Source: a virus
Virus record (IMG/VR): IMGVR_UViG_3300006641_004726
Location: 1 to 53,015 of that record
DNA: 53,015 bases
Strand: one strand, 5' to 3'
The position numbers and the translations under genes were made by a program. The first letter of the stretch is position 1; each line of letters opens with the position of its first letter. The notes beneath the pieces are model-generated. The model did not search any database. It saw only the letters and a list, made by a program, of their open reading frames with translations, and had not been told where the DNA came from. Shown here in pieces: positions 2,267 to 20,970 of the stretch.

Positions 2267-5200
2267 TCAGTTCAGTACGTATAGTGTTTGGTTCTCGACC
2301 AGTGGTTCGCGCCAGGCGACGTCCTGGCTCTGGTCGAAGAAACCGTCCTCGGCGGCGGCGAGGTCGGCGGCGAAATAGGCGTAGCCCACTTTGCAGTTGT
2401 TGGGGTTTTCATCGTAGCTCACATCGCTCTCGGGACAGAGAGGAGGGAACTTGTAGATGCTGGCGTCCCACACCGGAGCAGCGACCGGTATGACAGATTT
2501 TATCCTAAGATCGCGCTCGAGGAAGCCGGAAAGATACCCAGTGCCTGTAGGTTCAACGTAGACGCCTCTCCAGTCTCCAGAAGGAAACACCTGTCGGTAA
2601 TGTAGTGGCTCGTACTCGGCTATGTCGGCTTGGGCCCACTGGTCTCCCTGGATCTGAGGAGTATAGTCGAAATCAGCGTCTGAGTATTCCCCGACATTTG
2701 GCGTTGCTGAGAAGAAGTTGGAGAGGACAGAGATTCCCTCCACATCTGAGTAGATGAAAGGTTCGCTGTAGAGCACTGTTCCAACCGATGGGTCTTGCCG
2801 TTTGAAGATGACTTCTTCAAAGATCTGCGGAGTCTGTAGATTTGATGGGCATTCCATCTCTTTGAGGGCTCCAGACGTCCCGGCATAGGTGAAGTCCTGG
2901 ACTGAGGCCTGGGACTGCGACCACTTGACCCCGTCTCTCCCGTACTCCGAGGGAAGTCGGATGAAAGATCTGGTCCAGTCCTCGTCACCAGGGCCATTAT
3001 TGGAGTCGGCTCTGAGAGGATTGGCGTAGGCTTTTGTCGCTATGGTTTTCTCATCGCAAACCTCGAGAGACTCAGTGCGCCAAGGCCTCAGCACGCTCCC
3101 CGCATTTTGCACTGCGGGAGCAATGAAGAACCTCGTATTAGAGAACACCCTGTCGGTGATGGACACTGGAGGGTAAACAATCGCACTTGGGCCTACCCAG
3201 AGGGATGGCTGACTCTGGACCCCAGCTGGAGATAGAGCCTCGTAGTGGAAGATGTACGCGCATTCGAAGACGTCGATCTCGTACCAGATTGTGTAGTCTT
3301 CCGTTGAGTAGTGGACACTGGGCTCAAGTGCCACAAACTCGTCCGTGACATAGACGGTGAGCACTGTGAAGTCGGGTATTGGATTGGGATACTCTGAGAA
3401 CGGCCACCCGGTGTCGTACACAAGCGAAGAGTCCCAGTTGACCTCCACCCACGCCGGGTTGAAAGTGAGACCTTCATAGTACATCGCTATGCCCGGGGTT
3501 ACCGGATCTTGCCACAGATCACCATTGTCTAGATTACACGAACCAGTGGTTAGGACGGGCTTGAGGGGGAAATAGTCGCAGTCCGGAGTCCCTAGCTGAC
3601 AGGGAGAGATCGGAGCATCGATCTCGATCCACACTTTGTTGCGGTCACCGTCGAGGTAGAGCACTGAGAGCGCACCGACTTCGTTGTTCCAATAATAGTC
3701 CCCGACCTTTGCCAATGCAGGCGGTGAGTCACCAACGTAGATCTGCTTACCAGTCACCTGGTGGAGCATCCAATCGAAGTTGATTGGCTCTCTTACCGGC
3801 TCAAGGAACAGTGCCTCCTGCTCGTTGAAACCGTGGATGTCCAACGAGTCAAAGCACAGGTCCAGGGGTCTTGCTCCGCCCTTCGCCCCCCATGCTCCCC
3901 TGAAGTTGTTGAGGACTCCGAGCTCGTCGTAGGGGATTGATGTGACCTCCTCAGGGCGAGCCTTGAAGTCGTTACTGATGTCTATGGTGCTCTGAGTCGT
4001 GCCATTCACCGACAGGACCGTGATCCTGGGCACGAAATACTCACCCTCATCCGTGAGCGCCGTGTAAGTGACGTACAGATACCCGCCATCCACACTCCAG
4101 TTGATTGCGTAGCTCGGGGTTTGGTAGACTTGCGGGATGACTCGGCCGTCAACCAGAACCTCAAGGTTGGAGTTGTATGCTGGTGTGAAGATGGACTGGA
4201 AGAGAGACTGGTTGAAGAACTCGACCTCGTACCATTCCGGGTCGGTGACAAACGGGTCATTGTAGTAGAACCCATCGTCTTCTAGCGTGCCGTTGTAGAT
4301 CCAGAACCCGTCTTCGAGGTAGCTCGGGTAGTGGATGTGGAAGTTGTCTGGGTCGAACAGGTACAGACCTTGAACGTTCTGGGACGAGGGGTCAATGTAG
4401 AAGAACCCATCGATGATCCCGTTCGGGAAGAAGTAGTAAAAGTCTTGGAGACGGTAGCCTGCGTCCCAGACGTACGTGCGTCCAGTGGGGTCCTGCCAGA
4501 TGTTTCCTGGGGTGTAGTCGTAAACAACAGGAGGCGGAGCCGCGCTCCCTTTGAGTGCGATGGCAGTTCCTGCGGTGCCAACACTGACCCACTGGCCGCC
4601 GTTTAAGGCGTAGACGGTCTGAGAACCAGCGTCGAACCAAAGCGGGTTGTCTCCTAGTGGGGTGTTGTCGCCCACATGGAGGCGTGTGCCCAAGGAGTAG
4701 TTGAGACCTGCGGTGTCATAAGATTTGCTGATCTTGTAGACGTCTAGGATTGGGTTGAAGCCCTGCCCAGCCTGACCCCAGTCTGAGGGGTCTGTCCACT
4801 GAATAACCTGAATCTCCGCAGTCGCAATCGACTTCTTGGACTGTGACGCGTAGGCCCAGACGAGAAACAGACTGTTTCCAATCGCTTCAGGTGGAACATA
4901 CAGCTGCCACAGTCCCTTCGATTCGATCCACTCACACTCGACCCACGGTACGAACGAGACATTGTCAATCGAAAGGTAAACCGCACGGTCGAAGTAGTAG
5001 TAGGAACCGCCGTAGAACTGGAGGTTCTTGTACGGGACCAGAATGTTGTTCTGCGAGAATGGCGACAGAACCAGGTCGTAGTAGTCGTAGAACTGGGTGG
5101 TTCGAGTCAGGTTGCCAGTCGAGCACCGGAAGTCGGCGTCACCACTAGCGTAGGCCTCAGCGCGGTAGAAGGGGAATGGCCTATTCTGTGGGCAGTCCAC

Positions 5201-7747: not shown

Positions 7748-9247
7748 TCACTCCACTCCAATCGTGATGGCCGTGATCTCAGGATTACCTGGAACACTGA
7801 AGAACGAGACAGACGCATCGGACAGAGAAGTGTCCTCTGGCAGTGGCGGCGTGAATGAGACTGAGGCGCCAATGAAGAGTGTCTGGGTAGGCCGTGGTGG
7901 CTGGGGCGGATAGATCGGCCCCTCGTCGCTAACGTCTATGCCAACAGCCTCGAGGTCAAAGTAGGACGTCCTAAGGAGAGTGGGGGGAGCCATGAATCCC
8001 GGCGCGTACGTGTCCACCTTCGACTTCATCTCAGTCAGCTGTTTGTCCCAGTACTGAGTCAGCCAGTTGGCGACAGGCTCGTAGTCACGCGTGATGATGC
8101 TGCGTATGTCATCCTTCCACAGCTCACCTCCGGGCTTCCTTGCGATCTTGAAATTGTCGACGCTGATGATTGCGAGACGACAGAGAGTCTCATCGTCCGG
8201 AATGCGATTAGTGGGATAAATGCACACTTGAGCCCGAGCACGCGCCGTAGATGGGCGCGTCTCGATGAAGAGAACCCCAGAGACAGTCAGATCGTACGCA
8301 TTGACCTTTGTCCCGTCTGGCCACTCAAGCTTCCACGCTTTTTGAGGCACCATGTCAGTACCGAACTCCCAGTAGTATCCTGTGGTGTCTTTCTGCGCGG
8401 CGTTGGTCTGGACAAGAGCCCAGGGATTTTCAGGATTGTCGACGCCCACGTAGAGGGAGCAAGGCGGGACATCATTGAGGAGTTTGGTCCGGAGCTTAAT
8501 GGTGTTTAGTTTCCACGGGAATTTGGACGCCCACTCCACTGATGCGAGAATCGGCTGTTCATACTCAGGGATCCCCGGTTCCACACCGTTGTTCGGCCCT
8601 GGGACGCGGTTGATAAAATCAGTGTAGTTCTTCCACTCCAACCCGCGGCTTCCCGGCACAAAGAGATTCTGCCCTGGGAAGGGCCACGGGTTAGCCTCGT
8701 CCTCGCTTTGGTTGAAAGCACGAGAAGCGCTATCTGTGACGGTAAAGTCCTGGCCGGCGAGTGAGAAGTCGGCTACCTGGAAAGGCAGGGGCTCAGGCAA
8801 GTCGTCATACAGGAGCTGATACCCTACGAGATAGCGGCCGTCCTGAACGCCAAGCTGGCGCATGTCGATGAACATTTTGTAGACCGAGGTCGTTCCCTGC
8901 TCCCAGACAATAGCGCCATTCTCAATGAGCAGGACCTCGAGGTTTTCCGACTGGTTGACGTACAGTGAGCCTGGGCCAAACTGATCCCCACCAGGCGGAA
9001 TGAGCACGTAGCCGACACCTCCATCAGCGAAGAACTCCAATTGGTACTGCGCTGAGGCAGCAGGAAGCCTCCCATAGACTGGACGCCCACCAGGAACCCA
9101 CTGCGTAGGCTGAAGCTCCAGGTTTTTCACCGCCTTGTAGGGCGCTGAGAGGTACTGGGGCTTGTTGACTTGGGTCGTCGTCGTAATCTGAGGCGTCAAG
9201 CCAATTGTACCAGACGATGTTGGAATCGGTGTGAGTTCCTGGCTCAT
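7748..9247 (-). CDS. Baseplate-region protein downstream of J/gp6-like wedge protein (499 aa)
   Basis: It follows the baseplate J-like gene with an ATGA overlap (stop of that gene at 9244). In many contractile phages this is the slot of the next wedge protein (gpI/gp7 type), but I see no diagnostic motif. The N-terminal 50 residues are Thr/Gln-rich and probably extended. The middle is beta-rich (LEVLLIENGAIVWEQGTT, DGRYLVGYQLLYDDLP). A helical part near residues 380-420 (WLTQYWDKQLTEMKSKVDTY) is followed by a Pro-rich tail. Structural role inferred from context only. Confidence 0.7.
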   Translation of the reverse strand: MSQELTPIPTSSGTIGLTPQITTTTQVNKPQYLSAPYKAVKNLELQPTQWVPGGRPVYGRLPAASAQYQLEFFADGGVGYVLIPPGGDQFGPGSLYVNQSENLEVLLIENGAIVWEQGTTSVYKMFIDMRQLGVQDGRYLVGYQLLYDDLPEPLPFQVADFSLAGQDFTVTDSASRAFNQSEDEANPWPFPGQNLFVPGSRGLEWKNYTDFINRVPGPNNGVEPGIPEYEQPILASVEWASKFPWKLNTIKLRTKLLNDVPPCSLYVGVDNPENPWALVQTNAAQKDTTGYYWEFGTDMVPQKAWKLEWPDGTKVNAYDLTVSGVLFIETRPSTARARAQVCIYPTNRIPDDETLCRLAIISVDNFKIARKPGGELWKDDIRSIITRDYEPVANWLTQYWDKQLTEMKSKVDTYAPGFMAPPTLLRTSYFDLEAVGIDVSDEGPIYPPQPPRPTQTLFIGASVSFTPPLPEDTSLSDASVSFFSVPGNPEITAITIGVE

Positions 9248-12087
9248 AGCGCTAGGGTTCCCTGACCATAGGAGACGGGCTGGAGAGCCTCCTTAGATGC
9301 GGTGGCGAAGGAGAGTTGGGGGACTTGAGTGGTGTAGTCGGTGTTCTCCCACACGAACGTGGAAGTGTTTCCTCTAAGATTGGCCTGAGTGAGGGAGATT
9401 TGGGCGATGCCAAGTTTGATTCCGCTCGTGTCCGGCCCATTGGGCGCTTTGATCTGCTCCTCGCAGGAGTATTTGTTCACCACGCGCAGAAGGTTCCCAC
9501 TCAGTTCCTCTAGACGGGCTGTAGCCGTCACTTTCTCACCGTCCCAGTTGTACACGGGACTGGACGCGGTGAAGTATCGCATGGTCCGATAGACATTCTT
9601 GCCATCTTCCGAGATGACGATGTCTTCAACCGGTCTTTCTCCAGTAGCGCTGAAGAACGGGATGGACTGTCGCCCACTTAGTTCTGAGGGAACAAGGACG
9701 CCAGCGCGAATGTACACTCCGGGCGTGAACACAGGAGAGAAGTGACGCGTAGTAAGGTACGAAACCACCGAGCCACTCTCGCGGAAGAGAGTCGTGTCAC
9801 CTGGGGAGAAGACGAACATCTTTTCAGGACCACACACGGTGGACCTTCCGGTCTCCGGATTCTGTGACGTCTGCTCGTAGAAAGCCTGGGACAGCGCGGC
9901 GTTGGTGTCCACACGGGAGATAACTCCAGCGGCTACCATCTCATCTGGATCAGCCGTCCAAGGGGTGAAGCCTGTGAGGGTGAAGTAGATCTCAGCGTTT
10001 GAACCCGAAGTCTCGTAGTAAGTCAGGTAGGTGCGAGGGGCAAATCGTGGCGAATACTGGAATAGAGGCAGCGGCCTCAAGCCATTAGACGCAGAGACAC
10101 TGGAGATGGTGCCATTATCAATGAGCTGGGAGAAGCTCTCAGCGAGAGATCTGCCCGCAGACGGCAAGAAGGTGAAATCGTCATTGACGTAGGCGTACCT
10201 GACAATGACGCCAAGAGATGTGTCGATGTAGTAGTAGTAAGGATCCACCTCTTCGTTGGTGCCACCCCCGAGAGTCGGCGTGCGGATCCAAGACCCCGCG
10301 GCGTAAGAGCCACCCGCCTTGAGGTAAGGCACACTCACACTCACATCTGAGATGATGTCCTGGTTCTGACCGCCAGACACTGTGTCGGAGGACGGTTGGA
10401 GAGTGAAGTCGGCATTCACAACGAAGCAATACCAGTTCTCTCGGTAGTAGAGGTTGTCCACTCCCGGGGGCTCAAAGAATAGCCGGTCACAGGGAGCACC
10501 GTCAGGAGCCAGTTCCTGGTCCATCAAGATCACGTCAGGATCGTAGAACCCTGTGTTCTGGTTGTTGGCATAGTAGTCGTTGCCGACCTGCCAGGGAACG
10601 AAGTCTTTTGGTGCCGAAATGTCACCGTTGAGGATGAAGACGGCTGGGGACAAAGCAGCGTCAGAGAACGAGAAATTCCTGAGAACGACCAGGAGCGAGT
10701 TCTCAACGTCGGGATTCCTGAAGACTTGGCCCATGGTGTAAGTCCCAGGTGCCCACGGGAGGATTTTCTCCAGACGCAGATTCCCGTAGAGGAGCTGCGC
10801 TGTCTTTTCAGAGCTGTAGGGAGTGAAAGCCTTCACCACCGGCCACGCGAGGTCAGTCGTGGAGAGGGAAGGATCACCCACGGTCAGGAGATCGTGGATC
10901 GAGAATACGTTCTGTTGGGTCGTAAAGTTTGCCACTCTGGCGTTGAGAACGGACGTCTGGTTGACGCCCAATGGTGTGTTGTATGCACGCGCGGCGATGA
11001 TGTCAGGTTCCGAGTAGCGGACGTCGGCTGGGAAAGTCTCCGTGAGGGCTGAGTCTACATCTGCAACAGTCGGATCGTAACCGGACGGAAACTTGGCCCC
11101 CGGTGTCAGGATACTGAAGAGGCGGTCGCGTATGTTCAACGAGAACGCCTTCAGATTGGCCGCGTAGTCAGCACTCGGCTGGTATGAGAGGTCGATCTCA
11201 TACTGGACTTGGCTGAGGTTGATCGGGTAGACGTGGCCCTGCATCTCCAGTGGCATGGAGAAGTCTACCACATTCTGAGCGCGTTGCACCTGCTCAGAGG
11301 TTGGCTCCGTGCCGTCAGGATTGAGGAAGAAGAACGAGATGTGGCCGTCAGCGCGAACGTAGTCATTGAGCCAAATGTATGACTCCTGCGCCGACCGGTT
11401 GGGGAGAACGGCTGTGAATGTGCCGGCGCCAAACAGATCATCGAAGAGATCCTGCCAGTCCTGGGCAGAGACCGGGTTGCGACGGCGGATGAGTGTGAAG
11501 AAACGCTCCTTGACGACGTCAAGGGTCTCCACATCGGAACCGCCGACGGCCGCGATCTCGTTGGTGACCGCTGTGACCTGGATGTCAAGCCCAGAACTCT
11601 GGGTGATCGTGTTGGGTGCGACGTTGTTGAACGTGCCAATCAACACAGACGAGGCAGGGACCATTCCCACCGACTCGCCCGGTGGGTAGACCAAATCCTG
11701 TGTTGTCACAAAGGTGACCGACTCGCCGCCTGTCAGGTTGGGATCTGTCGTGAACTCAGTGCCAGCAAGGATGGACGTCTGGAACTGCTGGGGTGCGATC
11801 GCAATGGTGAGGCGGGTTGTCGCTGGTGTGCCCAGACGACGCATGGCGCCAAGGAATGGGCCGATCCACTCGATGAGAATCGACTCGGGAAGCTGGTTGG
11901 CCCAGAAGAGAAACTCACTCTGAGCAAATGCCTGACCCTCAATCAGGGCCATCATGGGGTTGCCAGCACTGAAGTCATTCAGTTTGGCATTTGAAGCATC
12001 GTAGACCCTCTTCGCAGCCTCGTTAACAAGCTGCGACTCATTCCGAGGGTCAATGTTTACCGCCGGTAGCGGAGCGTAGCGAGGCAT
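9244..12087 (-). CDS. Baseplate J-like / gp6-type wedge protein
   Basis: 947 aa. Residues 1-420 follow the baseplate J family: an N-terminal helical dimerisation region (NEAAKRVYDASNAKLNDF), a PATTRLTI strand, GTEFTTDP, the GGSDVETLDVVKERF motif with R-RRNPVSAQDW (typical 'GGxDxES-ex-R-R...A-T-dDyE'), then YPINLSQVQYEIDLSY and a late helix DVDSALTETFP. These elements are shared by P2/Mu J and T4 gp6. Residues 420-947 are an added beta-rich part not usual for the short J proteins, like the longer gp6 forms. It would form the baseplate wedge inner ring. ATG 12087. An ATGA overlap joins it to the next gene. Confidence 0.85.
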   Translation of the reverse strand: MPRYAPLPAVNIDPRNESQLVNEAAKRVYDASNAKLNDFSAGNPMMALIEGQAFAQSEFLFWANQLPESILIEWIGPFLGAMRRLGTPATTRLTIAIAPQQFQTSILAGTEFTTDPNLTGGESVTFVTTQDLVYPPGESVGMVPASSVLIGTFNNVAPNTITQSSGLDIQVTAVTNEIAAVGGSDVETLDVVKERFFTLIRRRNPVSAQDWQDLFDDLFGAGTFTAVLPNRSAQESYIWLNDYVRADGHISFFFLNPDGTEPTSEQVQRAQNVVDFSMPLEMQGHVYPINLSQVQYEIDLSYQPSADYAANLKAFSLNIRDRLFSILTPGAKFPSGYDPTVADVDSALTETFPADVRYSEPDIIAARAYNTPLGVNQTSVLNARVANFTTQQNVFSIHDLLTVGDPSLSTTDLAWPVVKAFTPYSSEKTAQLLYGNLRLEKILPWAPGTYTMGQVFRNPDVENSLLVVLRNFSFSDAALSPAVFILNGDISAPKDFVPWQVGNDYYANNQNTGFYDPDVILMDQELAPDGAPCDRLFFEPPGVDNLYYRENWYCFVVNADFTLQPSSDTVSGGQNQDIISDVSVSVPYLKAGGSYAAGSWIRTPTLGGGTNEEVDPYYYYIDTSLGVIVRYAYVNDDFTFLPSAGRSLAESFSQLIDNGTISSVSASNGLRPLPLFQYSPRFAPRTYLTYYETSGSNAEIYFTLTGFTPWTADPDEMVAAGVISRVDTNAALSQAFYEQTSQNPETGRSTVCGPEKMFVFSPGDTTLFRESGSVVSYLTTRHFSPVFTPGVYIRAGVLVPSELSGRQSIPFFSATGERPVEDIVISEDGKNVYRTMRYFTASSPVYNWDGEKVTATARLEELSGNLLRVVNKYSCEEQIKAPNGPDTSGIKLGIAQISLTQANLRGNTSTFVWENTDYTTQVPQLSFATASKEALQPVSYGQGTLAL

Positions 12088-12093
12088 GGCTTA

Positions 12094-12636
12094 TCAACCA
12101 ACAGGGCACTGGTCGCTGGCGGGAGTTCCAGCGTAGTTATTGCACGCGGAATCGGCACGGGCGTAGTAGCCGTTATCGATAAACAACGTGGCGAAGCGCT
12201 GGACGAGGATCTCTTTCGTAATTAGGTCAGCATCACTCAGAGCGCTGAACTTTTGGTCGAAAGACGGGTTCGGCACGCCGCCCGCAAAGTTGAACTTGCT
12301 GTTGGTCGTGAAGGAGAGCGGGGCGTTGTACGGGTTATTGGCCGGGATGCCAAGATCGAAACAGCTAGCCCCAGTAGTTTGCTCGAAACCAAAGTTCCAA
12401 GGGCCAGTAACAGTTTTCCCGCCGGAAATGGTGGGGGTGTTATAGCAGCCTGACTGCTCACCAGCCAGAGTCACATAGCGGGCGTCAAGGCCGTTGGGAC
12501 CGCTGAACTGCATCGAGTCCAGTCCCAACTGCGGGTAGTGCCAGTCTAGATCGGCACCATCGAAATATATTTGCTTCGCTCCGTTCAGCCACTGAGAGGT
12601 GACAATTACACCACTTGAAAAGGTCGTCTTAGCGAT
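12094..12636 (-). CDS. Tail protein (fibre/tail-tip type) apparently started at a non-AUG (ATC) codon
   Basis: The frame continues upstream of the first TTG (12528) through a clearly protein-like N-terminus: IAKTTFSSGVIVTSQWLN, GAKQIYFDGADLDWHYPQ. This resembles phage proteins that begin M-A-K-T-x-F-x-x-G-x-V-V-T. The codon in the place of the expected ATG is ATC at 12636-12634, with GGGG 7 bases upstream inside the end of the HNH gene. An in-frame TGA lies just above, so no ATG, GTG or TTG can serve before residue 37. With ATC as start the protein has 180 aa. The C-terminus is Cys/Ala-rich. It lies 6 bases before the baseplate J gene. A GGGTAAAACC motif lies about 35 bases upstream. Confidence 0.6.
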   Translation of the reverse strand: MAKTTFSSGVIVTSQWLNGAKQIYFDGADLDWHYPQLGLDSMQFSGPNGLDARYVTLAGEQSGCYNTPTISGGKTVTGPWNFGFEQTTGASCFDLGIPANNPYNAPLSFTTNSKFNFAGGVPNPSFDQKFSALSDADLITKEILVQRFATLFIDNGYYARADSACNNYAGTPASDQCPVG

Positions 12637-12640
12637 GGTA

Positions 12641-13213
12641 CTACCCCGCTTTACGGGTCAACTCTGAAAAGGTTTTACCCTGTATGATGTGCTTGAGCAT
12701 GTTTTCTATGGTTCTGACCGGGACTCCAAACTCTTTTGCCAGCCTCCCCTTGCCCCAATGATAGGATGATCGAGACTCGTATCTCAATTTCACTTCATTG
12801 AAAAGTTCTTCTGACCAGTGTTTTCTTTTATGTGGATGCCCCGTAATAGCCGCAGCAGCCCGCCCGGGGGCGTTGTTTCGCTTATGGCCGCTCTTCCCCA
12901 ATGACTGGATTTGGGATTTGTCCCGAGTTTTCCAAAGCTCCACCATTCGCTCAGAGTTATTGTCTTTCCATTGCTGTGTATGCTGTTTTCCAGTAAATCG
13001 ACGTGCTCTACTAGATAGTTCAGCCCAAATCTCTTCCTTTCCTTTGATTCCTAACAGCCCTTGCGCGGCCAGTAAATCTCTCTGATCACCCTTTTCCAAG
13101 TATCGCAAATTGTGCAAAAACGCGTGCATAGCAACGTTCACACGCACACGGTTATTAGGGGAGTCATCTCCACCGTCGTACTTAGGGGTTAAGTGGTGAG
13201 TGTGAAAGATCAT
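12641..13213 (-). CDS. HNH homing endonuclease-like protein
   Basis: 190 aa. The N-terminus THHLTPKYDGGDDSPNNRVRV is an HNH nuclease core (HH, then N, then H in MHAFLHNLRY). A central basic linker (GKSGHKRNNAPGRAAAAITG) leads to a C-terminal helix-turn-helix (KGRLAKEFGVPVRTIENMLK) that would bind DNA. It is inserted between the tail tube and a tail protein, starts 1-2 bases after the T-run of a terminator, and ends 4 bases before the next frame. There is no SD apart from the GGGG in the terminator stem. Free-standing homing endonucleases of this type spread between phage genomes. Target unknown. Confidence 0.85.
   Translation of the reverse strand: MIFHTHHLTPKYDGGDDSPNNRVRVNVAMHAFLHNLRYLEKGDQRDLLAAQGLLGIKGKEEIWAELSSRARRFTGKQHTQQWKDNNSERMVELWKTRDKSQIQSLGKSGHKRNNAPGRAAAAITGHPHKRKHWSEELFNEVKLRYESRSSYHWGKGRLAKEFGVPVRTIENMLKHIIQGKTFSELTRKAG
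12671..12680 (-). promoter_or_regulatory. GGGTAAAACC motif copy 2
   Basis: Perfect 10-mer within the 3' end of the HNH gene, 35 bases upstream of the ATC start of the tail protein. It could serve that gene, since the terminator at 13215-13247 cuts it off from upstream transcription. Confidence 0.4.
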
Positions 13214-13214
13214 G

Positions 13215-13247
13215 AAAAAAGGCCCCGAAGAGCGGACTCTTGGGGCC
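13215..13247 (-). terminator. Rho-independent terminator after tail tube gene
   Basis: Minus strand GGCCCC-AAGAG hairpin with TCCG loop, closing CTCTT-CGGGGCC, followed by six T. It lies 40 bases after the tail tube stop. The T-run ends at the start codon of the HNH gene. Confidence 0.85.
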
Positions 13248-13287
13248 AGTGTAGAAAACGGGATCTGAAAGAAACCTCCCAGAAGTC

Positions 13288-13731
13288 TTAGTTTCTTTCC
13301 CAGTAGTTAACTGTCATCGAGACTTCTATGGTCTGAACATCTCCGGAGTCGCGAGCGACTTCGCCGGTGGTGATGCTGGTCAGCAGGCATTCGTAGAGAA
13401 TGTACTGACCGCCGCCAGGACCAGACTGGAGACCGTCACAGCTGCGAGGAGTCACCGTTACGGTGATCTTCTGACAGTTGTAGTCGATCCAGAACTGCTC
13501 GAGAGGTTTGAAGATCGCTGGGTCGTACGGCGCGCCGAGAGTGATCTCGTCAGCAGTACGGGGACCAACAACGTGGTAGATCCGGTTTCCTGTGCCGTTG
13601 GCGTAGGTGGACGAGTCGCTGGAGTCCTGAACTCCGGAGAACTCGGTGAAGACCGCAGTGAAGGTCGGACCGCCAGCAGCGGTGAAAGACACTTCGTATT
13701 GGGCCTTTGTTAGTGGGCGCAGAATAGCCAT
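13288..13731 (-). CDS. Tail tube protein (gp19-like)
   Basis: 147 aa, a size typical for phage tail tube monomers. Beta-rich sequence with YEVSFTAAGGPTFTAVFTEF at the N-terminus. A central segment LGAPYDPAIFKPLEQFWIDY and the end TIEVSMTVNYWERN match the layout of contractile tail tube proteins (the 'G.....P..l..w' segment and final 'v....v...e.' strand). It has the strongest ribosome binding site seen in the window (AAGGAGGTGATCCC before ATG 13731), which fits a very abundant virion protein. It lies directly downstream of the major capsid gene and is followed by a strong terminator. Confidence 0.75.
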   Translation of the reverse strand: MAILRPLTKAQYEVSFTAAGGPTFTAVFTEFSGVQDSSDSSTYANGTGNRIYHVVGPRTADEITLGAPYDPAIFKPLEQFWIDYNCQKITVTVTPRSCDGLQSGPGGGQYILYECLLTSITTGEVARDSGDVQTIEVSMTVNYWERN

Positions 13732-13748
13732 GGGATCACCTCCTTAGT
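13730..13748 (-). promoter_or_regulatory. Near-perfect Shine-Dalgarno of tail tube gene
   Basis: Minus strand AAGGAGGTGATCCC directly before ATG 13731. It is complementary to the 16S rRNA 3' end over at least nine bases and much stronger than at other starts here. Confidence 0.85.
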
Positions 13749-13759
13749 TACTAGCCTTA

Positions 13760-14815
13760 TCAGGCCAGAATGTCGGTGATCATCGCGCCAGAACCGATCA
13801 GGCCGGTGGTGCCAAGGCCCACAGGATGCACAGCACGCTCGACGGTGATCTCAGCGCGGACCACACGACGCTCGCGGATGTAGTACTCAGGACGAACGGC
13901 AGGGGTGCCGGTCAGCTGGTAGGTGTAAGCGAAGGCCGGGGTAGCAGCGTTGGCGCCGCCAGCAGGCATCACAGCGTCAGAAGGACCGTTCGGGCTGTAG
14001 AACAGCAGGATGCCATTCTCAGGGAACACAGGCAGCAGCTGACCGTTCTCGGCCAGGTAGCGACCCTCGGCCACGCGGATACCGCGCTCGAGACCGAAGT
14101 AGCGAGCAAGCATGTCCACGTCGATCGAATCGGCGGTGGTGTACTTGATACGCTCAAGGATGCTCTGGTTGGTCAGCAGCTGGTCGAAGATAGCGGTACC
14201 AACGATCATCGAGTTGGGACGGATGCCGATCTGGTAGGACACGCTACGCTTCAGGGTCAGCACAGCCTCGATCGGGTTCGAGGTGGGGTCGCCCCAAGGA
14301 GCAGCACCAGCGGCAGAACCGTAGGCGGTCTGGAACTGAGTGAAGGTCTCGAAGCCGAGTCCGGTCTGGCTGCCAGGCACGCCGTTGTAAGGCTCGTAAG
14401 GGTTGAAGGAACCGGTCACGGTCACCACTTCAGCCACGGTCTTCTCGTAGGCGTTCATCAGGCGGGACATTGCGTTGCGAGTTTCAATCGCACGCAGGTC
14501 CACCTGGGCCGGACCTTCGCCAGCGTTCTCGATGACTTCTTCGGGCAGTTCCCAAGCCACCACTTCCTGTTCCAGGGCGTAGGGCTCGCTGTCGTAACGT
14601 GTCTGCACGTACGGAATGTTGGTGCCATATGCACGACGGAAGTCGTTGATGGCGAATTGCTCCTTGCCGAAGCGCAGAATGCGGCCAGCACGAGTCGGGG
14701 TGTCCACCACGGGCGCGATGAAGTTCGCGATGTTGGTGGAGGGGAGCATGAAACCTTGTGCAAGCGTCGTCAGAATTGGATCGACGCCCGCATAGGTTTG
14801 GGCTAGGTTCATCAT
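13760..14815 (-). CDS. Major capsid protein (Mu-like, HK97 fold)
   Basis: 351 aa. It lies in the Mu order: protease-scaffold, decoration, capsid. Motifs of the family include the N-terminal helix with FIAPVVDTPTRAGRILRFGKEQF, RYDSEPYALEQEVVAWELPEE, AYEKTVAEVVTV (spine-helix-like), then NSMIVGTAIFDQL, and near the C-terminus YYIRERRVVRAEITVERAV. It is predicted to form the icosahedral shell. Start ATG 14815 (a second ATG follows). GGAG lies 13 bases upstream. A 105-base leader separates it from the decoration gene and contains short palindromes (GGAGTACTCC, GGTTGCAACC) of unclear meaning. Confidence 0.8.
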   Translation of the reverse strand: MMNLAQTYAGVDPILTTLAQGFMLPSTNIANFIAPVVDTPTRAGRILRFGKEQFAINDFRRAYGTNIPYVQTRYDSEPYALEQEVVAWELPEEVIENAGEGPAQVDLRAIETRNAMSRLMNAYEKTVAEVVTVTGSFNPYEPYNGVPGSQTGLGFETFTQFQTAYGSAAGAAPWGDPTSNPIEAVLTLKRSVSYQIGIRPNSMIVGTAIFDQLLTNQSILERIKYTTADSIDVDMLARYFGLERGIRVAEGRYLAENGQLLPVFPENGILLFYSPNGPSDAVMPAGGANAATPAFAYTYQLTGTPAVRPEYYIRERRVVRAEITVERAVHPVGLGTTGLIGSGAMITDILA

Positions 14816-14920
14816 GGGAGGGAGTACTCCGTAAGTCTATGAAGATGATTTCAACGGGTTGCAACCGCTTGGGCTTACGATCCTGAGAAGGAAATGCCAA
14901 GCGGAGAGCAACCAGATTAC

Positions 14921-15599
14921 TCAGCTGAAGGAAACGGTCACCATGCGACGGCCACCGATGTCGATGACTTCGCGGATGGTGGGGACAGTACCGTCGGCGG
15001 TCACGGCGGTGCCGGAAGCCGAAGCCTGACCGATGGCGTTCACCAGCAGAGGGCTGTTGTAGGTGATAGGAGCAGAAGCGGGATCCACTTCCACGAGCAG
15101 CAGACCGGAGGTAGCCACGGTAGCCAGACGAGGGGAAGCAGGAGCGTCAGCGAACAGGGGGATGAAGGCTTGGTTCACACCCAGGATGGTTGTGGGGGTA
15201 GCGCCAGGCAGGGTGCAGGTTCCCTGAGTGGTGCCAGCGCTCACGCAGCGGAACTCGCCGATAGCCACGGCAGGATCGCCAGTGAAGGTTTCCGCAAACC
15301 TGATGTCAAAATTGTTATCGTGGTGGCTCTTTATCCTCCACTTCTCCATGTTGCCATGGAGTTCAGACTATATCTTCACCCGCGTGGGGTGCCGGGCACT
15401 CGTGTCAGCCTCATCACTGGTCTAGTGGTACGCTGTTAGTCGTTGAACCTTCCGCCCATCCCTGGACGGCTTGGCTGCTGATTGTCCCAGAGGGAGATCC
15501 CAGCAATTCACCCGGTTTTTCACTCCACATTGCTGTGGAAGGCAGCTCTCAGGTCGACTGCTTGCCGTAGGCAGGTGCGGCGTTAGTCGAAGTAAACAT
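14921..15599 (-). CDS. Head decoration protein (DUF2190-like), split gene: exon 1 15557-15599, exon 2 14921-15318
   Basis: Exon 1 starts at ATG 15599 (MFTSTNAAPAYGKQ) and stops being protein-like at 15557. Exon 2 continues in frame at 15318 with YNNFDIRFAETFTGDPAVAI. Joining T (15557) to AT (15318) restores one 146-aa reading frame (43 + 398 bases with stop). The product, rich in Ala/Thr/Gly with AFIPLFADAPASPRLATVATSG and a closing IDIGGRRMVTVSF, matches small decoration proteins placed before the capsid gene in Mu-like phages. Between the exons lies a group I intron. Without splicing, translation of exon 1 would end at a TGA six bases into the intron. Confidence 0.75.
15319..15556 (-). ncRNA. 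Group I self-splicing intron (238 nt, no ORF)
   Basis: Minus strand shows the conserved core in order: P/Q elements AATTGCTGGGA and AATCAGCAGCCAAG, R element GGTTCAACGACTA, S element AAGATATAGTC. R GACTA pairs with S TAGTC to form P7. P1: exon end GCAGT pairs with GCTGC in the intron, leaving the usual U.G at the 5' splice site. P2 is TTCCACA-GCAA-TGTGGAG with a GNRA loop, and P9 is CTCCATG-GCAA-CATGGAG. A GTGG/CCAC hairpin then leads to the terminal G at 15319. The boundaries are supported by the restored reading frame. Confidence 0.9.
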
Positions 15600-15608
15600 G
15601 TCTCAATG

Positions 15609-16043
15609 TCAATGGGACTTTAAGGGGTGGAAGGTGGCCGTTCGTCTTCCTCGAACCCATCCTTCGCCGGGGCAAGTGTGGGATCGGGTTGACTTGATGC
15701 CATTTGTCCACCAAGGCATTTTGCCCAAAGTTCGGGCGGTTTCTGCAGCAACAGCCTTTGAATGGTCAGTTGCTGGCGCGCGTCCACCTCTCTTACCCGC
15801 ATTGCTGTGGTGTTGAGGGTGTCTCGCGATCCAATCTCGTCGTGCTTCAGCGATAGCTTCGGCTTGGGTGATTTGTCCTGAGAGCGCAAAGGCTGCCAGC
15901 CAATCTCCCAGTTCTCCGTATTCGAGGTATCGTGCGAAGTGAAGTTCTGCATGTTCCTCGACCGTGACTTCGATGAGGTTGGAAGGATCGTCAGTTCCGC
16001 CAGCGTGCTTTGGCAGAATGTGGTGGGTGTGGGTGACGGCCAT
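15609..16043 (-). CDS. Free-standing HNH endonuclease next to the intron-containing gene
   Basis: 144 aa. HNH core at the N-terminus (THTHHILPKHAGGTDDPSN, then HAELHFARYLEYGE). The C-terminus WWTNGIKSTRSHTCPGEGW is a short module common at the end of phage HNH proteins. Start ATG 16043 is preceded by an A/C-rich leader with no SD. The stop (15609) is 9 bases before exon 1 of the decoration gene, so the nuclease is outside the intron but adjacent to it. This is the arrangement of collaborative homing, where a free-standing nuclease mobilises a neighbouring ORF-less intron. A GGGTAAAACC motif lies 20 bases upstream. Confidence 0.85.
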   Translation of the reverse strand: MAVTHTHHILPKHAGGTDDPSNLIEVTVEEHAELHFARYLEYGELGDWLAAFALSGQITQAEAIAEARRDWIARHPQHHSNAGKRGGRAPATDHSKAVAAETARTLGKMPWWTNGIKSTRSHTCPGEGWVRGRRTATFHPLKSH

Positions 16044-16063
16044 GTTGTTTGTTTGGTTGAGCT

Positions 16064-16073
16064 GGTTTTACCC
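16064..16073 (-). promoter_or_regulatory. GGGTAAAACC motif copy 3
   Basis: Perfect 10-mer starting at the TAG stop of the F-like gene and 20 bases upstream of the HNH start. It would drive HNH, decoration, capsid and tube genes. Confidence 0.5.
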
Positions 16074-16900
16074 TAACGGTACTCAATGTGGCATCGACAA
16101 CGATCCCAGCATCGGCAGCCACGCCCAGGCATCGGTAGCGACCCGATGGGTTGCCAGCCAGCCTCGTCGTAACTCGCACAGTCCGGGCAGACGCGTTTGT
16201 CGTGGTGTGCGACGCGCCTCATCTGTCGGTAGCCCTTCTGTTGGCGGTCCATGAAGACCCCAAGGTTGAAGAAGCTGTACGCAGGGGAGGCGATGTAGCG
16301 GAGGACGCGACCGAAGAGTGAGCCCCACGTCTTTCCGACGGCTCTCTTCTGTGCGGTCTTTATCGCCGCTTGTTCGGCGGGTGTGGTGTCAAGCCACTCT
16401 TCCGGGTATTCCGGGTCGAACTCTGAGTCCACGTCAAGCACGGTGTTTAGGTCGATGGAGTCCAGGGAATTTGAGTCCCCAGCGTACACCAACTTGCGGT
16501 CATCGTCACCTTCCTCGAAGTCGACGGAGTCGTCCCCGTATTTCAGGGTCCCGTCATCGAGGTAGTCTTTGGTCTCTTTGAGGAAGACGTTCAGAGGGGG
16601 AAGCATCCCGCCCACGATGGACGGCCACGCTTTCTCCATTTTGTCTTTGGGCTGACTTTCCCCAGCGCCGAGGTAGACAGCTGCGAGGGCGGAGGTGAGG
16701 GTCTTGTCCACGAGAGCACGTTCGTACTCGTCGAACTTCATCTGCCGGTCACGAAGACCTTTGACGATGACCCGACCCTCAGCCTCCATCCTCTTCTCCA
16801 GCTCACTGAGGTCTGGGAATTTCTTCGCCAGACGCTCAGCTTGCTTGAAGTAGGTCTCCCTCTGACGGGTGGCTAGGCCAACCATCGAGAGAAGATCCAT
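16073..16900 (-). CDS. Mu F-like head morphogenesis protein
   Basis: 275 aa, between portal/protease and capsid genes. The C-terminus carries the diagnostic segment of the Mu F/SPP1 gp7 family: RQMRRVAHHDKRVCPDCASY, ending in PMPGRGCRCWDRCRCH, with clustered cysteines and His. The N-terminal half is helical (RQRETYFKQAERLAKKFPDL, IVKGLRDRQMKFDEYERALV). It is a minor head protein thought to act in DNA packaging or ejection. ATG 16900 is 1 base after the stop of the protease-scaffold gene. It ends with TAG immediately followed by GGTAAAACC. Confidence 0.8.
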   Translation of the reverse strand: MDLLSMVGLATRQRETYFKQAERLAKKFPDLSELEKRMEAEGRVIVKGLRDRQMKFDEYERALVDKTLTSALAAVYLGAGESQPKDKMEKAWPSIVGGMLPPLNVFLKETKDYLDDGTLKYGDDSVDFEEGDDDRKLVYAGDSNSLDSIDLNTVLDVDSEFDPEYPEEWLDTTPAEQAAIKTAQKRAVGKTWGSLFGRVLRYIASPAYSFFNLGVFMDRQQKGYRQMRRVAHHDKRVCPDCASYDEAGWQPIGSLPMPGRGCRCWDRCRCHIEYR

Positions 16901-16901
16901 C

Positions 16902-19436
16902 TCAGCTGTACATTGCCTTCTTCAGGGCTTCCACGTAGTCCATCTCGCCACCAGACTTTTCGACCATGGCGAGAGCCCTTTGGTGAGGGTCCAGGTCGGC
17001 CTCATCCACGAACTTCATGGAACCACCAGCGTACTCGCTGAAGTCCACGAGGTTGGGCAGGCGATCGAGGATGCTGAAGAGCAGGCCAGTGGCGGTCTCA
17101 CCTTCGGAGAACTCCATGGTGCCAAACTCGAGACCCTCGGCGAACTCCATGAGTTTCCGCTCGGGGATGATGGAGTCGACCATCTTGCCGGACTCGTAGA
17201 GACCTTCCACGAAGCTGTGGATCTGCTCCTTGCGATGAGCGATCTGGGCTTCACGGTACTCGTGCTTGATGCGAGCGTTCTCGGCCTTCAGGGCTTCCAG
17301 CTCAGCACGGAACTCAGAGAACTCGTCGGCTTCCTTGTAGTTCCGGCCCATGGGCTTGTTCTTGCCCATGTCACAGAACTCCTCGTCCATCTCCTCGTCC
17401 TCACCCTCTTTGTAGGTGGAGCCGAAGCCGGTCTTGGAGTAGGGGTTCTGGTCCTTCTTGTGCTCGGCGTAGCCAGTGCTCACGCCGGAAGGCCCGGTCT
17501 CTTCAGCCACACCGCCGTCGTACTCACCGCTCAGCATGTCCTTCTTGGACTTCTGAACGCCAGCCTGAGCCTCGAGGCCCTCAGCGTGCTCGTCGGAGAG
17601 CATCTCGTCCTCTTCCTTACCGAAGCGCTTGGCCATTTCGGCTTCGCCCGGCTTGCCTTCCTTCTTGAGACGCTTGGCCTCGAAAGCGCGGTCGGCAGCA
17701 GCTTTGCGCTCAGCTTTGGGCTCAGCGTGGTCAGCGCCACCAGTCACACCGGAAGGACCTGTGCGCTCAGCGGGCTCGTCATCCTCATCGGAGTCGAATG
17801 CGCCAGGAGTCAGGGCTTTCTTGCTGGACTTGGGCTCACCACGGTAGGACTCAGCGTACACACCGCCAGTCTTCAGGGTCATCTCATCGGGACCACCCTC
17901 GAACTCACCGGAGAGCTGCTTCTTCTTGCCGCCCTCGGCGTACACGCCATCCTTACCTGTCACCTCAGCGGGCTCGGGCTCGGCGTAGTCAGCCATCACG
18001 GAACCAGGAATGCCACCACCATGGGAGTGAGGCATCTTCTGGCCGCTCTTGATCTGCATCACGCGGGCGTTCTTGGCGCGAGTGGAGTTCTCCACCTTGC
18101 TTGCGAACACCTCGTCGTCAGGCATCTCCTCGGTCTCGGTGGGCATCTTGGTCTCAGAGTCCACACGACCGGCAGGGTTGGTGCCAGAAGCGGTCTCGGC
18201 GTCGTTCACGCCGTAGTCAACGTCATCATCGTAGACGTCGTTGTTGTACATCTGTTCACGACTCATTTCGTCGTACCGTCCTTCATCGTCAGGGTCTACG
18301 AAACGACCGGTCTTGCGACGGTCCTCTTCGATGTCATTGTTTTTGGCTGCGGGACGACCTGCGTCGTGCTGCTCCTTGCCTGTGGAGATCTTGTCGCGAC
18401 CGAAGGTCGCTTTCTCGGGAGTGGTCTTGCCGGTCTTGTAGCGATCGGCCTGCTGCTCGCCGCTCTTGGCGGTCTCGTAGCGATCTTCGCCGAGGTCATT
18501 CTTCGGACCGCCTTCTGCGAAGTTGGTCTTGCCGGGCTCCATGCGGGGGTTCCGCATCTTGGGGGCGTTGGCGCCCATGTCCTCCTCTTCGCCCTCCTCG
18601 TACACGTTCTCCACCACCTGGGAGACAGAACCATGCGGAGTGCTCTTCTTTTTGCGGCTGATGCCTGCTTTTTCCATGAAATCGTCCTGGGGGAACTGGT
18701 CTTCAAGATCTGCAACAGATCGGGCATTGTCCCCCTTGCGAGGACGCTCCGAAAAGTTGGAGGGGTTGCTCGGATTCTCCACCTCTGACGCCTGATCCTC
18801 AGCTTCCGCCACATCAGCGGAAGTGTCCTCCTCCTCCTGTTCCTCGGGCGTGCCCACGGCTTCGGCCACGGCAGCCTGCATCTCGCTTCGAGCCAGGTCG
18901 AGCTTCTCCTTGAGCATCTCCAGCGGAGACTGGTCACGGATCAGTGTCGGGCCGAGGTCCTCATCGAAGACGTCGGCTGGGTTCAGCTTCACGGCGAAGT
19001 CGTAGACTCCGACGCGAGTGTCCCACTCAGCGAAGTTGAAGGGCTCCAGACCTTTCACAGCCGGAGGAGCGGCACCGAGCAGCGCCAGATGGCGTGCGGT
19101 CCACTTTCCGGGGTGGGGATTGATCTGGGAGTCAGGTGAGTAGAAAGAGATCGACACCTTGCGGTAGTGACCGTCTTTCACGAGGTCTTTGGCTACATCC
19201 GTGAATGCGACGTCTGCGTAGAGGTTGTCGCCCTGACGGGTGAAACCCTTGATCCATCCGTAGGATGGCAGACTGTCCGAGTCGCCCTGGTGACCAAGCA
19301 CCAGCGGAGCCTCGTGGATCGACGGATTGTAAGAGTCGACCACCTGTTGGAGGTCTTTCTCGGAGAAGGTTCGAGCCACGCCCTGGGCTGACGTTTGATC
19401 GCCAGCTTTGAACACGTGGATGCGCTTTTGAAACAT
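16902..19436 (-). CDS. Mu I-like prohead protease with long acidic scaffold domain
   Basis: 844 aa. Residues 1-150 match the Mu gpI protease type: RTFSEKDLQQVVDSYNPSIH, APLVLGHQGD, YGWIKGF, YADVAFTD, KVSISFYSP, HLALLGAAPPAVKGL (the S of SISFY and H of LGH are candidates for the catalytic residues). Residues 170-650 are an extremely acidic, low-complexity spacer with repeated TGPSGV/TGGVYAE-like motifs. The C-terminal 200 residues are helical (ELEALKAENARIKHEYREAQ), ending in VEALKKAMYS, like a capsid scaffold. A single fused protease-scaffold is known in Mu-like phages, but this one is unusually long. ATG 19436. A GGGTAAAACC lies 84 bases upstream. Confidence 0.8.
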   Translation of the reverse strand: MFQKRIHVFKAGDQTSAQGVARTFSEKDLQQVVDSYNPSIHEAPLVLGHQGDSDSLPSYGWIKGFTRQGDNLYADVAFTDVAKDLVKDGHYRKVSISFYSPDSQINPHPGKWTARHLALLGAAPPAVKGLEPFNFAEWDTRVGVYDFAVKLNPADVFDEDLGPTLIRDQSPLEMLKEKLDLARSEMQAAVAEAVGTPEEQEEEDTSADVAEAEDQASEVENPSNPSNFSERPRKGDNARSVADLEDQFPQDDFMEKAGISRKKKSTPHGSVSQVVENVYEEGEEEDMGANAPKMRNPRMEPGKTNFAEGGPKNDLGEDRYETAKSGEQQADRYKTGKTTPEKATFGRDKISTGKEQHDAGRPAAKNNDIEEDRRKTGRFVDPDDEGRYDEMSREQMYNNDVYDDDVDYGVNDAETASGTNPAGRVDSETKMPTETEEMPDDEVFASKVENSTRAKNARVMQIKSGQKMPHSHGGGIPGSVMADYAEPEPAEVTGKDGVYAEGGKKKQLSGEFEGGPDEMTLKTGGVYAESYRGEPKSSKKALTPGAFDSDEDDEPAERTGPSGVTGGADHAEPKAERKAAADRAFEAKRLKKEGKPGEAEMAKRFGKEEDEMLSDEHAEGLEAQAGVQKSKKDMLSGEYDGGVAEETGPSGVSTGYAEHKKDQNPYSKTGFGSTYKEGEDEEMDEEFCDMGKNKPMGRNYKEADEFSEFRAELEALKAENARIKHEYREAQIAHRKEQIHSFVEGLYESGKMVDSIIPERKLMEFAEGLEFGTMEFSEGETATGLLFSILDRLPNLVDFSEYAGGSMKFVDEADLDPHQRALAMVEKSGGEMDYVEALKKAMYS

Positions 19437-19520
19437 TGTCTCAAACCTAGTAGCAACGGGGTTATTGGGGGTGAGAAGCTTTGACTCCCCAGGTGGTTTC
19501 CCGTCGCCGGTAACTGGTCA

Positions 19521-19530
19521 GGTTTTACCC
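19521..19530 (-). promoter_or_regulatory. GGGTAAAACC motif copy 4
   Basis: Perfect 10-mer immediately after the TGA of the portal gene, in the 94-base gap before the protease-scaffold gene. Confidence 0.5.
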
Positions 19531-20970
19531 TCAGGTGGGCTTCACCTTCGCCTCCTCCTCGTCCTCATCGTTGGCCATCGATGTGGCCTCGTCCTCAGTT
19601 ATTTGATCGTCGCCAAACGGCTTCTCTCCACCTTCTTCCTCTTCACCACCACCACCGAAGATCTTGTCATAGAGGTCGCCGTCCGCCTCAGGGTCGTATT
19701 CCTCAGGGGCGCCTTCCACTTCGGTGCCTGGAGCGGCAGCCTGGAAGTCCTCCTCCTCAGCGAGATCCACTTTGAAGTGGTTCTGGATCCACTCCTTCTT
19801 CGGCTTGTAGCCCGATTGGATCATGAGGCTCACATCTGCCATGGTCAGAGTGGACTCTTCCAGGTTAAACTGGCGGCTGATTTTCGGTGCCTCAACGTCG
19901 ACACCGAAGTTGAGGTCAACGATCCAACGAATGAGGGTGTCACTCAGCGTCTGAGAGATGAGCTGGGAAAGCTCCGAAGCGCGGATCACTCGCACCAGGT
20001 TTGCCACCTGAGATGAAGCTCGGCTGCCGGCTTCCGCTTGTCCCGCCTCGTCCTCACCGCAGATGAGCAGAGAGATCTCCTTGTCGATGTACTCGATGAG
20101 GTTCATGAAGATGTCCGCTGAACCCGATGGATTCAGGAACTCCAGCTCATAACCCTCGGGGAGGATCATTGCTGTCTCTTGAGACAGGTTGGAAAGGTGG
20201 TCGTACAGTGTGTCAATCTCAATGTTTGAGGCCGAGAGAGGAGCCTTCGCGATTGCGGTTGGCGTTGCGTAACGGTCGCCATACAGCACGTAAGACTCGA
20301 TAGCACGACGACGAAACTTAACGATCGGATACAGGATGCGACCCAGGCCCGTTCCATAAGGATCTCCTGTGTGAGAGAGCCAGTAGCGTTGGATGATGAA
20401 CTTGCGTGCCGGCAGTTCAATACCTTCAAACATCCGGTTGAAGGTCAGCACACGCATTGTGAAGCCAGTGTCTGCCTCCTCACTCTCCTGGAAGACAAAG
20501 CGGCGCTGGTCGCGGATGCGAACGTCAAACGGAATGATGCCTTGAGCTGTTTTCTTCCACATCACCTCGCCCACGCTGAACCCGCAGATGAGTGCCTCAC
20601 CGAGGCCTTTGTAGAGGTCGTCGACGTCCAGATACTGGAGTGCCTGTTCGACGTAGTCCTTCACTGCAAGGTCACCGGGCTTCTCGGAAGCTGGGGTCAG
20701 CAGCCAGTCACGGGAAGTGATCTCCTGGCAGAGTTTCATGAACGACGCCTGGACTGACGAGTCCCAGAACAGTCGTTTGTAGATGATGAGGGCGCGGTTG
20801 CCACCCTTCTGGATGATTAAGTCGTCGTCAGGGCGGACGATCGTGTTGCCCTGGCCAGTGAACGGGCTCGAAGACCCGAACATGTAGATGGACGACAGAT
20901 TGTACGGGTCCGTCGTATACTTCGCGACCTCTCCCGACGGAACCGGTGGGATGTTGAATCTTTTCGCCAT
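19531..20970 (-). CDS. Portal protein (Mu gp29-like, DUF935 type)
   Basis: 479 aa. Conserved elements include SSVQASFMKLCQEITSRDW, LIYKRLFWD, EALICGFSVGEVMWKK, VRIRDQRRFVF, GTGLGRILYPIVKFRRRAIE, RYATPTAIAKAP and SLLICGEDEAGQAEAGSRAS (the 'iLGqtlTt..g..GS.a' segment). They match the Mu-type portal that forms the dodecameric DNA entry vertex. The C-terminal 90 residues are acidic and Gly-rich (FGGGGEEEEGGEKPFG). Start ATG 20970 shares a base with the gp25-like stop. It is followed by the protease gene, as in Mu. Confidence 0.85.
   Translation of the reverse strand: MAKRFNIPPVPSGEVAKYTTDPYNLSSIYMFGSSSPFTGQGNTIVRPDDDLIIQKGGNRALIIYKRLFWDSSVQASFMKLCQEITSRDWLLTPASEKPGDLAVKDYVEQALQYLDVDDLYKGLGEALICGFSVGEVMWKKTAQGIIPFDVRIRDQRRFVFQESEEADTGFTMRVLTFNRMFEGIELPARKFIIQRYWLSHTGDPYGTGLGRILYPIVKFRRRAIESYVLYGDRYATPTAIAKAPLSASNIEIDTLYDHLSNLSQETAMILPEGYELEFLNPSGSADIFMNLIEYIDKEISLLICGEDEAGQAEAGSRASSQVANLVRVIRASELSQLISQTLSDTLIRWIVDLNFGVDVEAPKISRQFNLEESTLTMADVSLMIQSGYKPKKEWIQNHFKVDLAEEEDFQAAAPGTEVEGAPEEYDPEADGDLYDKIFGGGGEEEEGGEKPFGDDQITEDEATSMANDEDEEEAKVKPT

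Follow-up and report, generated by a model that had tools for sequence, protein, structure and literature searches.

A putative head decoration gene in a 53-kb uncultured phage record (the window, by which the whole stretch of DNA analysed is meant) is interrupted by a 250-nt group I intron and is preceded by a free-standing gene for an HNH homing endonuclease. Comparison with around 100 relatives suggests, with a probability of about 70%, that the locus is one of collaborative homing, in which the upstream HNH protein would act at the insertion site of an intron that has no open reading frame of its own, the HNH gene having come separately and the intron being both a passenger and a form of protection. 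The observations that carry this reading are the identity, ends, fold and mobility of the intron, the constraint on the HNH gene, the breakpoints of exchange between alleles and an association of the HNH gene with a silent change at codon 14 of the head gene.

The interrupted head gene and its intron

The genes of the region run, on the minus strand, in the order head protease, a 275-aa gene, the HNH gene, the short head gene, the major capsid protein and the tail tube (Table 1). The closest isolate seen is the Synechococcus phage S-CBWM1, whose capsid protein is 66% identical to that of the window, and because of this relationship the host is probably a cyanobacterium; one genome scan for the host returned two distant MAG contigs only, and hence no host. 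In S-CBWM1 the homologue of the short head gene is gp172, which sits between the peptidase and major capsid genes. In this phage (L175 in the comparison) genes for a PknB-like kinase and for a virion protein lie between the major capsid gene and the homologue of the decoration gene.

The putative decoration gene thus lies between the head protease and the major capsid gene, a stretch that also holds the 275-aa gene of unknown function (gene order; phrog_976, phrog_1005). Its product has no Pfam or PHROG match and no relative in a sequence search of solved structures. A model made from an intact relative (L004) is of low confidence, with the N-terminal half affected, and the best Foldseek matches to it, a capsid chain of FCWL1 (E 0.11) and one of T1 (E 0.13), are weak. 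Alignment shows that the 14 N-terminal residues are conserved throughout the family. A leader with the motif AAAGTCC (window 15600-15630, minus strand) precedes the gene as a conserved element in relatives, whether or not they have the HNH gene, and is possibly a late promoter or translation signal.

The ends of the intron are set by intronless relatives, which start with MFTSTNAAPAYGKQYIRFAE or MATNAAPxYGKQYIRYAE without interruption; in these homologues exon 1 reads straight on as MFTSTNAAPAYGKQ-Y, and all of them contain KQYIR[FY]A. Removal of 250 nt from the window, which joins ..AACAAUUUUG to ACAUCAGG and takes out an intron ending in ..AAUUUUG, gives KQYIRFAE exactly, and judged in silico against the intronless alleles the junction CAGT/ACATC (the slash marks the splice site) restores the conserved GKQYIR start. 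The introns of two further alleles, L003 and L292, are also 250 nt long and follow the same rule (..AUUUG/ACAUCC and ..CCUUG/ACAUCC). The last intron base is G15307, with a G likewise in L003 and L292, and in P9.0 the UU before this final G can pair with the AA after P7, an arrangement that is unchanged in all three alleles. Because the intronless homologues, the ends in L003 and L292 and P9.0 all fit 250 nt, the true intron is most likely 15307-15556.

The earlier note had removed 238 nt and drawn attention to the exact restoration of the frame. The frame is indeed kept, but the 3' end was misplaced by 12 nt, and frame restoration is blind to the choice between 238 and 250 nt because 12 is a multiple of 3. 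It is highly improbable that an intron ending at 15319 (junction 15319/15318) is the spliced form, despite its intact frame: its product, KQYNNFDIRFAE, reads KQY-NNFD-IRFAE and so contains an NNFD insertion seen in no intronless homologue, L003 would by the same rule read QCNIFDIR, and the AA/UU pair of P9.0 beside the final G suits only the 250-nt end. This boundary was rejected by the homologues. Just as improbable is a dead intron with a protein that starts inside it, at ATG 15349. This ATG opens a 142-aa frame, but it is absent from L003 and L292, its use would cost the protein the 14 N-terminal residues conserved across the family, and the fold of the intron is maintained through compensatory changes; the start was rejected on the ground that the ATG is not conserved.

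The Rfam model Intron_gpI (RF00028) is matched over its complete length (model 1-253; 79.9 bits, E 9e-19) by this one intron in the window. The full group I core that had been read from the letters is borne out both by this match and by the core helices (P3-P8, P7 and the P3/P7 pseudoknot), all of which are paired in the three alleles. The same reading had proposed a P1 with a U.G splice site, GNRA caps, an intron without an ORF and a first exon of 14 codons, and each of these features was recovered: P1 pairs GCAGU with GCUGC and has U15557.G15546 at the splice site, a U.G that L003 and L292 share, P2 and P9 both carry GCAA loops, no ORF was found inside the intron, and exon 1 consists of 14 codons and one further nucleotide.

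Helices P1 to P10 were drawn by hand and their pairing was scored in the three alleles (the window, L003 and L292), giving 75 pairs with 97.8% of cells paired. Compensatory changes occur at 10 pairs (in P2, P3, P6a, P9, P9.1 and P10), a count that 0/500 shuffles match and that slid partners bring to 2 at most. The register of the putative P10 shifts together with exon 2, from ACCUGA with UCAGGU in the window to CGGAU with AUCCG in L003 and L292, and the intron region folds better than its shuffles (z -2.40). Because ten pairs change on both sides and the fold beats shuffles, the intron appears to be structurally constrained, as would be expected of an active ribozyme. P7.1/P7.2 lie between P7 and P3, which we take to suggest an IA-like subgroup.

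Table 1. Features of the locus; positions are those of the window.
Feature	Position	Strand	Evidence or remark
Free-standing HNH homing endonuclease gene, 144 aa, phrog_655-like	15609..16043	-	phrog_655 E 3.7e-11
Exon 1, putative head decoration gene	15557..15599	-	14 codons + T; ends CAG/T
Codon 14 (CAG), directly 5' of intron site	15558..15560	-	CAA in most intronless HNH carriers
Group I intron, 250 nt, ORF-less, with P7.1/P7.2	15307..15556	-	RF00028; intronless alleles, L003 and L292; covariation
P1	15542..15561	-	exon GCAGU (15557-15561) + intron GCUGC (15542-15546), U.G at 5' splice site
P2 hairpin, GCAA loop	15523..15540	-	two pairs changed on both sides, three alleles
P7 5' strand, guanosine-binding helix	15437..15441	-	partner 15366-15370
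P7 3' strand	15366..15370	-	partner 15437-15441
P9 hairpin, GCAA loop	15344..15361	-	three pairs changed on both sides
P9.1 hairpin	15320..15341	-	two pairs changed on both sides
Exon 2 partner (UCAGGU) of putative P10	15298..15303	-	intron ACCUGA (15549-15554)
Exon 2, putative decoration gene	14921..15306	-	alignment; spliced product 142 aa
Major capsid protein gene	13760..14815	-	phrog_1005 E 8.9e-49; intronless here, intron-rich in relatives
Second free-standing HNH gene, same family, 190 aa	12641..13213	-	phrog_655 E 5e-4; after tail-tube gene

Movement of the intron and the HNH gene

Pattern scans gathered 92 distinct intronless alleles of the decoration gene, set against three independent intron alleles only: those of the window (shared with L002) and L003, which have the HNH gene, and that of L292, which has no adjacent HNH. 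The last came from a scan for the 3' splice-site pattern, most matches of which were unrelated phages, L292 being the one genuine third allele. It sits in a distant branch of the decoration gene family, and between it and the window the identity is 87.2% in the intron, 68.1% in exon 2 and 61.5% in the upstream gene. Because the intron is far more alike than the genes that flank it and occupies the same insertion site, the comparison indicates that it passed horizontally from one lineage to another at a single site.

The HNH gene is kin to homing endonucleases of Synechococcus phages. Its motif residues H7 H8, N22, H31 and H35 are invariant in 10 homologues, and the Pfam HNH match to the window gene is below cut-off (E 0.0017). 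By the NG86 method, dN/dS is 0.092/0.976 (~0.09) against L011 and 0.133/0.752 (~0.18) against L003; at these values the gene is under purifying selection and, because the ratios are low, its protein appears to be kept functional. As had been noticed earlier, the gene is free-standing and outside the intron, its stop codon lying 9 nt before the ATG of exon 1, and its last codons (..HPLKSH and stop) overlap the leader that is conserved ahead of the head gene. Diverged homologues have a C-terminal zinc finger of C2H2 type (read by eye); the HNH proteins of the window, L003, L011 and L019 are without it, their ends likewise falling in that leader. The second HNH gene of the window is 31% identical to the first, and no second intron was detected near it at E up to 0.5 in a search of 9000-20000.

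An HNH-like gene occupies the slot in 12/92 of the distinct intronless alleles. On the exon-2 tree these carriers are dispersed, most of them beside HNH-less relatives, and all four combinations of HNH and intron, present or absent, occur among natural alleles. Because the HNH gene is found beside so many intronless alleles it is, judged by its distribution, an independent mobile gene that is separable from the intron. A different ORF (177-199 codons, not HNH) lies between the 275-aa gene and the decoration gene in L188, L197 and L248; that of L188 has no Pfam match.

Close pairs of alleles with and without the HNH gene show steps in similarity near the insertion site, even where both are intronless. 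L028 (with HNH) and L029 (without) differ at 11/34 positions to the left of the site and at 0/60 to the right. L003, which has HNH and intron, and L252, which has neither, differ at 4/34 positions on the exon 1 side and at 0/60 in exon 2, and their right flanks remain at least 98% identical per 100 nt over 1.1 kb. The right flanks of L279 and L269 are nearly identical beyond ~+21. L011 and L186 share the HNH gene and exon 1, with 2 differences in 520 nt, and have 85/430 differences to the right, in exon 2, nearly all from +60 on. The breakpoints are bracketed at -2..+143, -5..+566, ~+21 and +11..+60, the first two brackets being wide, and in the resolvable cases the exchange breaks at the intron site or within 60 nt of it. 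The 15 pairs in which both members lack HNH and which show 0/60 differences to the right have at most one difference to the left. Such footprints are the co-conversion patterns expected if a break is made at or near the insertion site, which suggests that the HNH target spans it, and L003 has the appearance of a joint transfer of HNH and intron into an L252-like recipient.

A further signal comes from codon 14, which precedes the codon that the intron splits (T/AC). It is CAA in 8/11 intronless HNH carriers versus 9/71 HNH-less alleles (Fisher 8e-5), and this is the strongest of 139 position tests along the gene, the next being 0.010. When related HNH versions are collapsed CAA stands at 7/10 (p 2.8e-4), and in a tree-aware test the favoured model has CAA arising only where HNH is present and being lost only where it is absent (LR 17.5, 2 df, p 1.6e-4). 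The other Gln codons of the decoration gene show no association with HNH. A general codon bias was rejected as the source of the CAA signal, Gln codons of the capsid gene being 42% CAA in both groups. The signal could be due in part to hitch-hiking, because exon 1 travels with the HNH gene; the other exon-1 positions are far weaker than codon 14. CAG is retained in 3/11 of the intronless carriers, CAA is found in nine alleles without HNH, and CAG, a requirement of P1 as well, is preserved in each of the three intron alleles. Most simply read, CAG would be the sensitive form, from which intronless carriers escape by CAA and intron carriers by interruption, so that the phage would seem to have two alternative self-protections, the intron and a silent mutation of one letter.

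These observations can be assembled into a sequence of events. The decoration-type head gene would hold a self-splicing intron of 250 nt, free of any ORF, that is presumably spliced out of the head-gene mRNA in the cell, and the product of the HNH gene upstream would be a homing endonuclease, its target in other phages most likely extending across CAR T/AC ATH, codons 14-16. The HNH protein would nick or cut intronless alleles that have CAG and lack the HNH gene near these codons, and the tract copied in repair would take in the HNH gene, the leader and exon 1, together with the intron where there is one. Carriers would be spared their own cutting either through the silent change from CAG to CAA or through the intron, which splits the site. 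The HNH gene would have reached the locus independently of the intron, a passenger that doubles as protection. The earlier note had already invoked collaborative homing: the breakpoints, the silent site change and the apparent joint transfer in L003 speak for it. HNH and intron are also separable, and L292 with no HNH speaks against, as does the missing C-terminal zinc finger of the window's HNH protein.

It is unlikely that the two elements are neighbours by accident. In that case the HNH protein would cut elsewhere, in the leader or in the gene upstream, and the intron would owe its spread to reverse splicing or to a different nuclease. The breakpoints would then cluster at the site only as a conserved stretch suited to recombination, and codons 14-20 are indeed among the most conserved DNA near the HNH gene; the intron of L292 without HNH and the three HNH carriers that retain CAG also fit such an account. 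Against this, no step appears at the site in pairs that lack HNH and whose right flanks are identical, the top association of the 139 tests lies 2 nt from the insertion site and survives the tree-aware test, and codon use elsewhere is equal between the groups.

Known homing systems and the origin of the arrangement

Collaborative homing is the name given to the action of F-CphI and the psbA intron of cyanophage S-PM2 (Zeng 2009, in PMC6083498). The system shares with the window an ORF-less group I intron, a free-standing nuclease gene that adjoins the interrupted gene, a nuclease thought to act at the insertion site and a cyanophage setting, which for the window is given by relatedness. Unlike F-CphI, which is of the Endo VII type, the nuclease of the window is a Mob-like HNH protein, predicted to cleave, and the intron interrupts a head gene; intronless alleles with a silent site change are here also commonly accompanied by the nuclease gene. 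The MobE and nrdB intron pair of T4, an example of trans homing (PMC2988022), likewise has a free-standing HNH gene directly upstream of the intron-containing gene, but there the intron itself encodes a nuclease, I-TevIII, which is defunct in T4, and the gene and the phage group are different (PMC2988022).

Intronless homing by SegF, SegG and a Skunavirus HNH (PMC2988022, PMC12724721) resembles the window in that a nuclease gene moves with a co-conversion tract and an altered target immunises the carrier, whereas here a group I intron is inserted at that very site. We infer by analogy that intronless homing may operate at the same site in sister lineages without the intron. The terminase intron of ICP1 with its adjacent T5orf172 nuclease (PMC10448857) is similar in having the HEG by a short N-terminal exon and outside the intron; the nuclease family and the host gene differ, and no series of intermediate states is described in the extract of that paper. 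L028 has between its decoration and capsid genes (2784-3450) an ORF that resembles a GIY-YIG homing endonuclease (MYHFVYNSYEAWGRNYIGVHS.., assigned by eye), so that the decoration gene is there bracketed by two homing genes, like the 'HEG-islands' of PMC10448857.

The view that a capsid gene is an unusual host for an intron does not hold, given the capsid and tail gene introns published for the mycobacteriophages LittleE and BAKA and lactococcal Tuc2009 (PMC3706429) and the heavy invasion of the adjacent major capsid gene in relatives. LittleE and Tuc2009 resemble the window in that an abundant head gene is interrupted by an intron that is group I or group I-like, and efficient splicing was shown for the capsid intron of LittleE, which in contrast to that of the window lies in the major capsid gene and has an internal nuclease ORF (PMC3706429).

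All the ingredients of the locus are known, capsid-gene introns included; the novelty lies in the natural intermediates taken together. Barth et al. 2023 (PMC10448857) call it unclear by what route a free-standing nuclease and an intron unrelated to it acquire a common target. The decoration gene family offers candidate natural intermediates (nuclease alone, both, intron alone, neither) together with a candidate one-base escape change, and the intermediates bear on that question. HEG turnover, as in the same paper (Barth et al. 2023, PMC10448857), would have the intron lose its own nuclease and the free-standing HNH gene settle next door later. It concerns the origin of the arrangement and is compatible with collaborative homing as its present function. 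Related introns with internal nuclease ORFs are found in a T7-like capsid gene (L310-L312) and among the long capsid introns of L305 and L307, but all three decoration-gene introns are ORF-less and 250 nt long and the HNH family lies beside many alleles that show no intron; such turnover is quite unlikely, and an order of events in which the HNH gene came first is favoured. Whether the locus displays the very origin of collaborative homing is evenly poised: an HNH gene that already homed at a conserved run of codons, with silent self-protection, would later have met at this site an unrelated ORF-less intron, which took over the protective role of the mutation and came to travel with the HNH gene.

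Intron-rich capsid genes of relatives

The major capsid gene of several relatives, directly downstream of the decoration gene, contains ~9-12 group I introns. These include L305 and L307, regions of contigs IMGVR_UViG_3300042569_002782 and IMGVR_UViG_3300044619_002381, and also L200, L204, L243 and L248. There are ~9-12 exons, some of only 10-19 codons, and the introns are ~240-300 nt long, apart from a few longer ones with HNH ORFs. In L307 the exons cover residues 1-12, 13-31, 32-50, 51-94, 95-106, 107-119, 120-299, 300-309 and 310-351, and L305 has further splits beyond these. Splicing in silico restores the capsid protein of L305 and L307 to full length, with 83-84% identity to that of an intronless gene; the introns inferred in these two genes number 9 and 12, with approximate boundaries. 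L243 has 13 Rfam matches above cut-off in ~3.4 kb. A literature search found no bacteriophage capsid gene with such an intron load, and the number of introns per phage gene is far above anything in the literature searched, which suggests that capsid genes of the same phage group can tolerate extreme intron loads.

Some intron sites are common to several of these genes, namely that after residue 94 in L309 (exon boundaries from a BLAST exon map), L305 and L307 and that around residue 299 in L308, L305 and L307; L308 has an additional intron immediately after the capsid start codons. The phage that contributes contig IMGVR_UViG_3300042569_002782 has three more group I introns, one after the other, in another gene region (L306, 26.5-31 kb). 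A group I intron that shares a 32-nt core with the intron of the window is found in the T7-like (Gp10A-like) major capsid gene of L310, L311 and L312, where it carries an endonuclease-like ORF.
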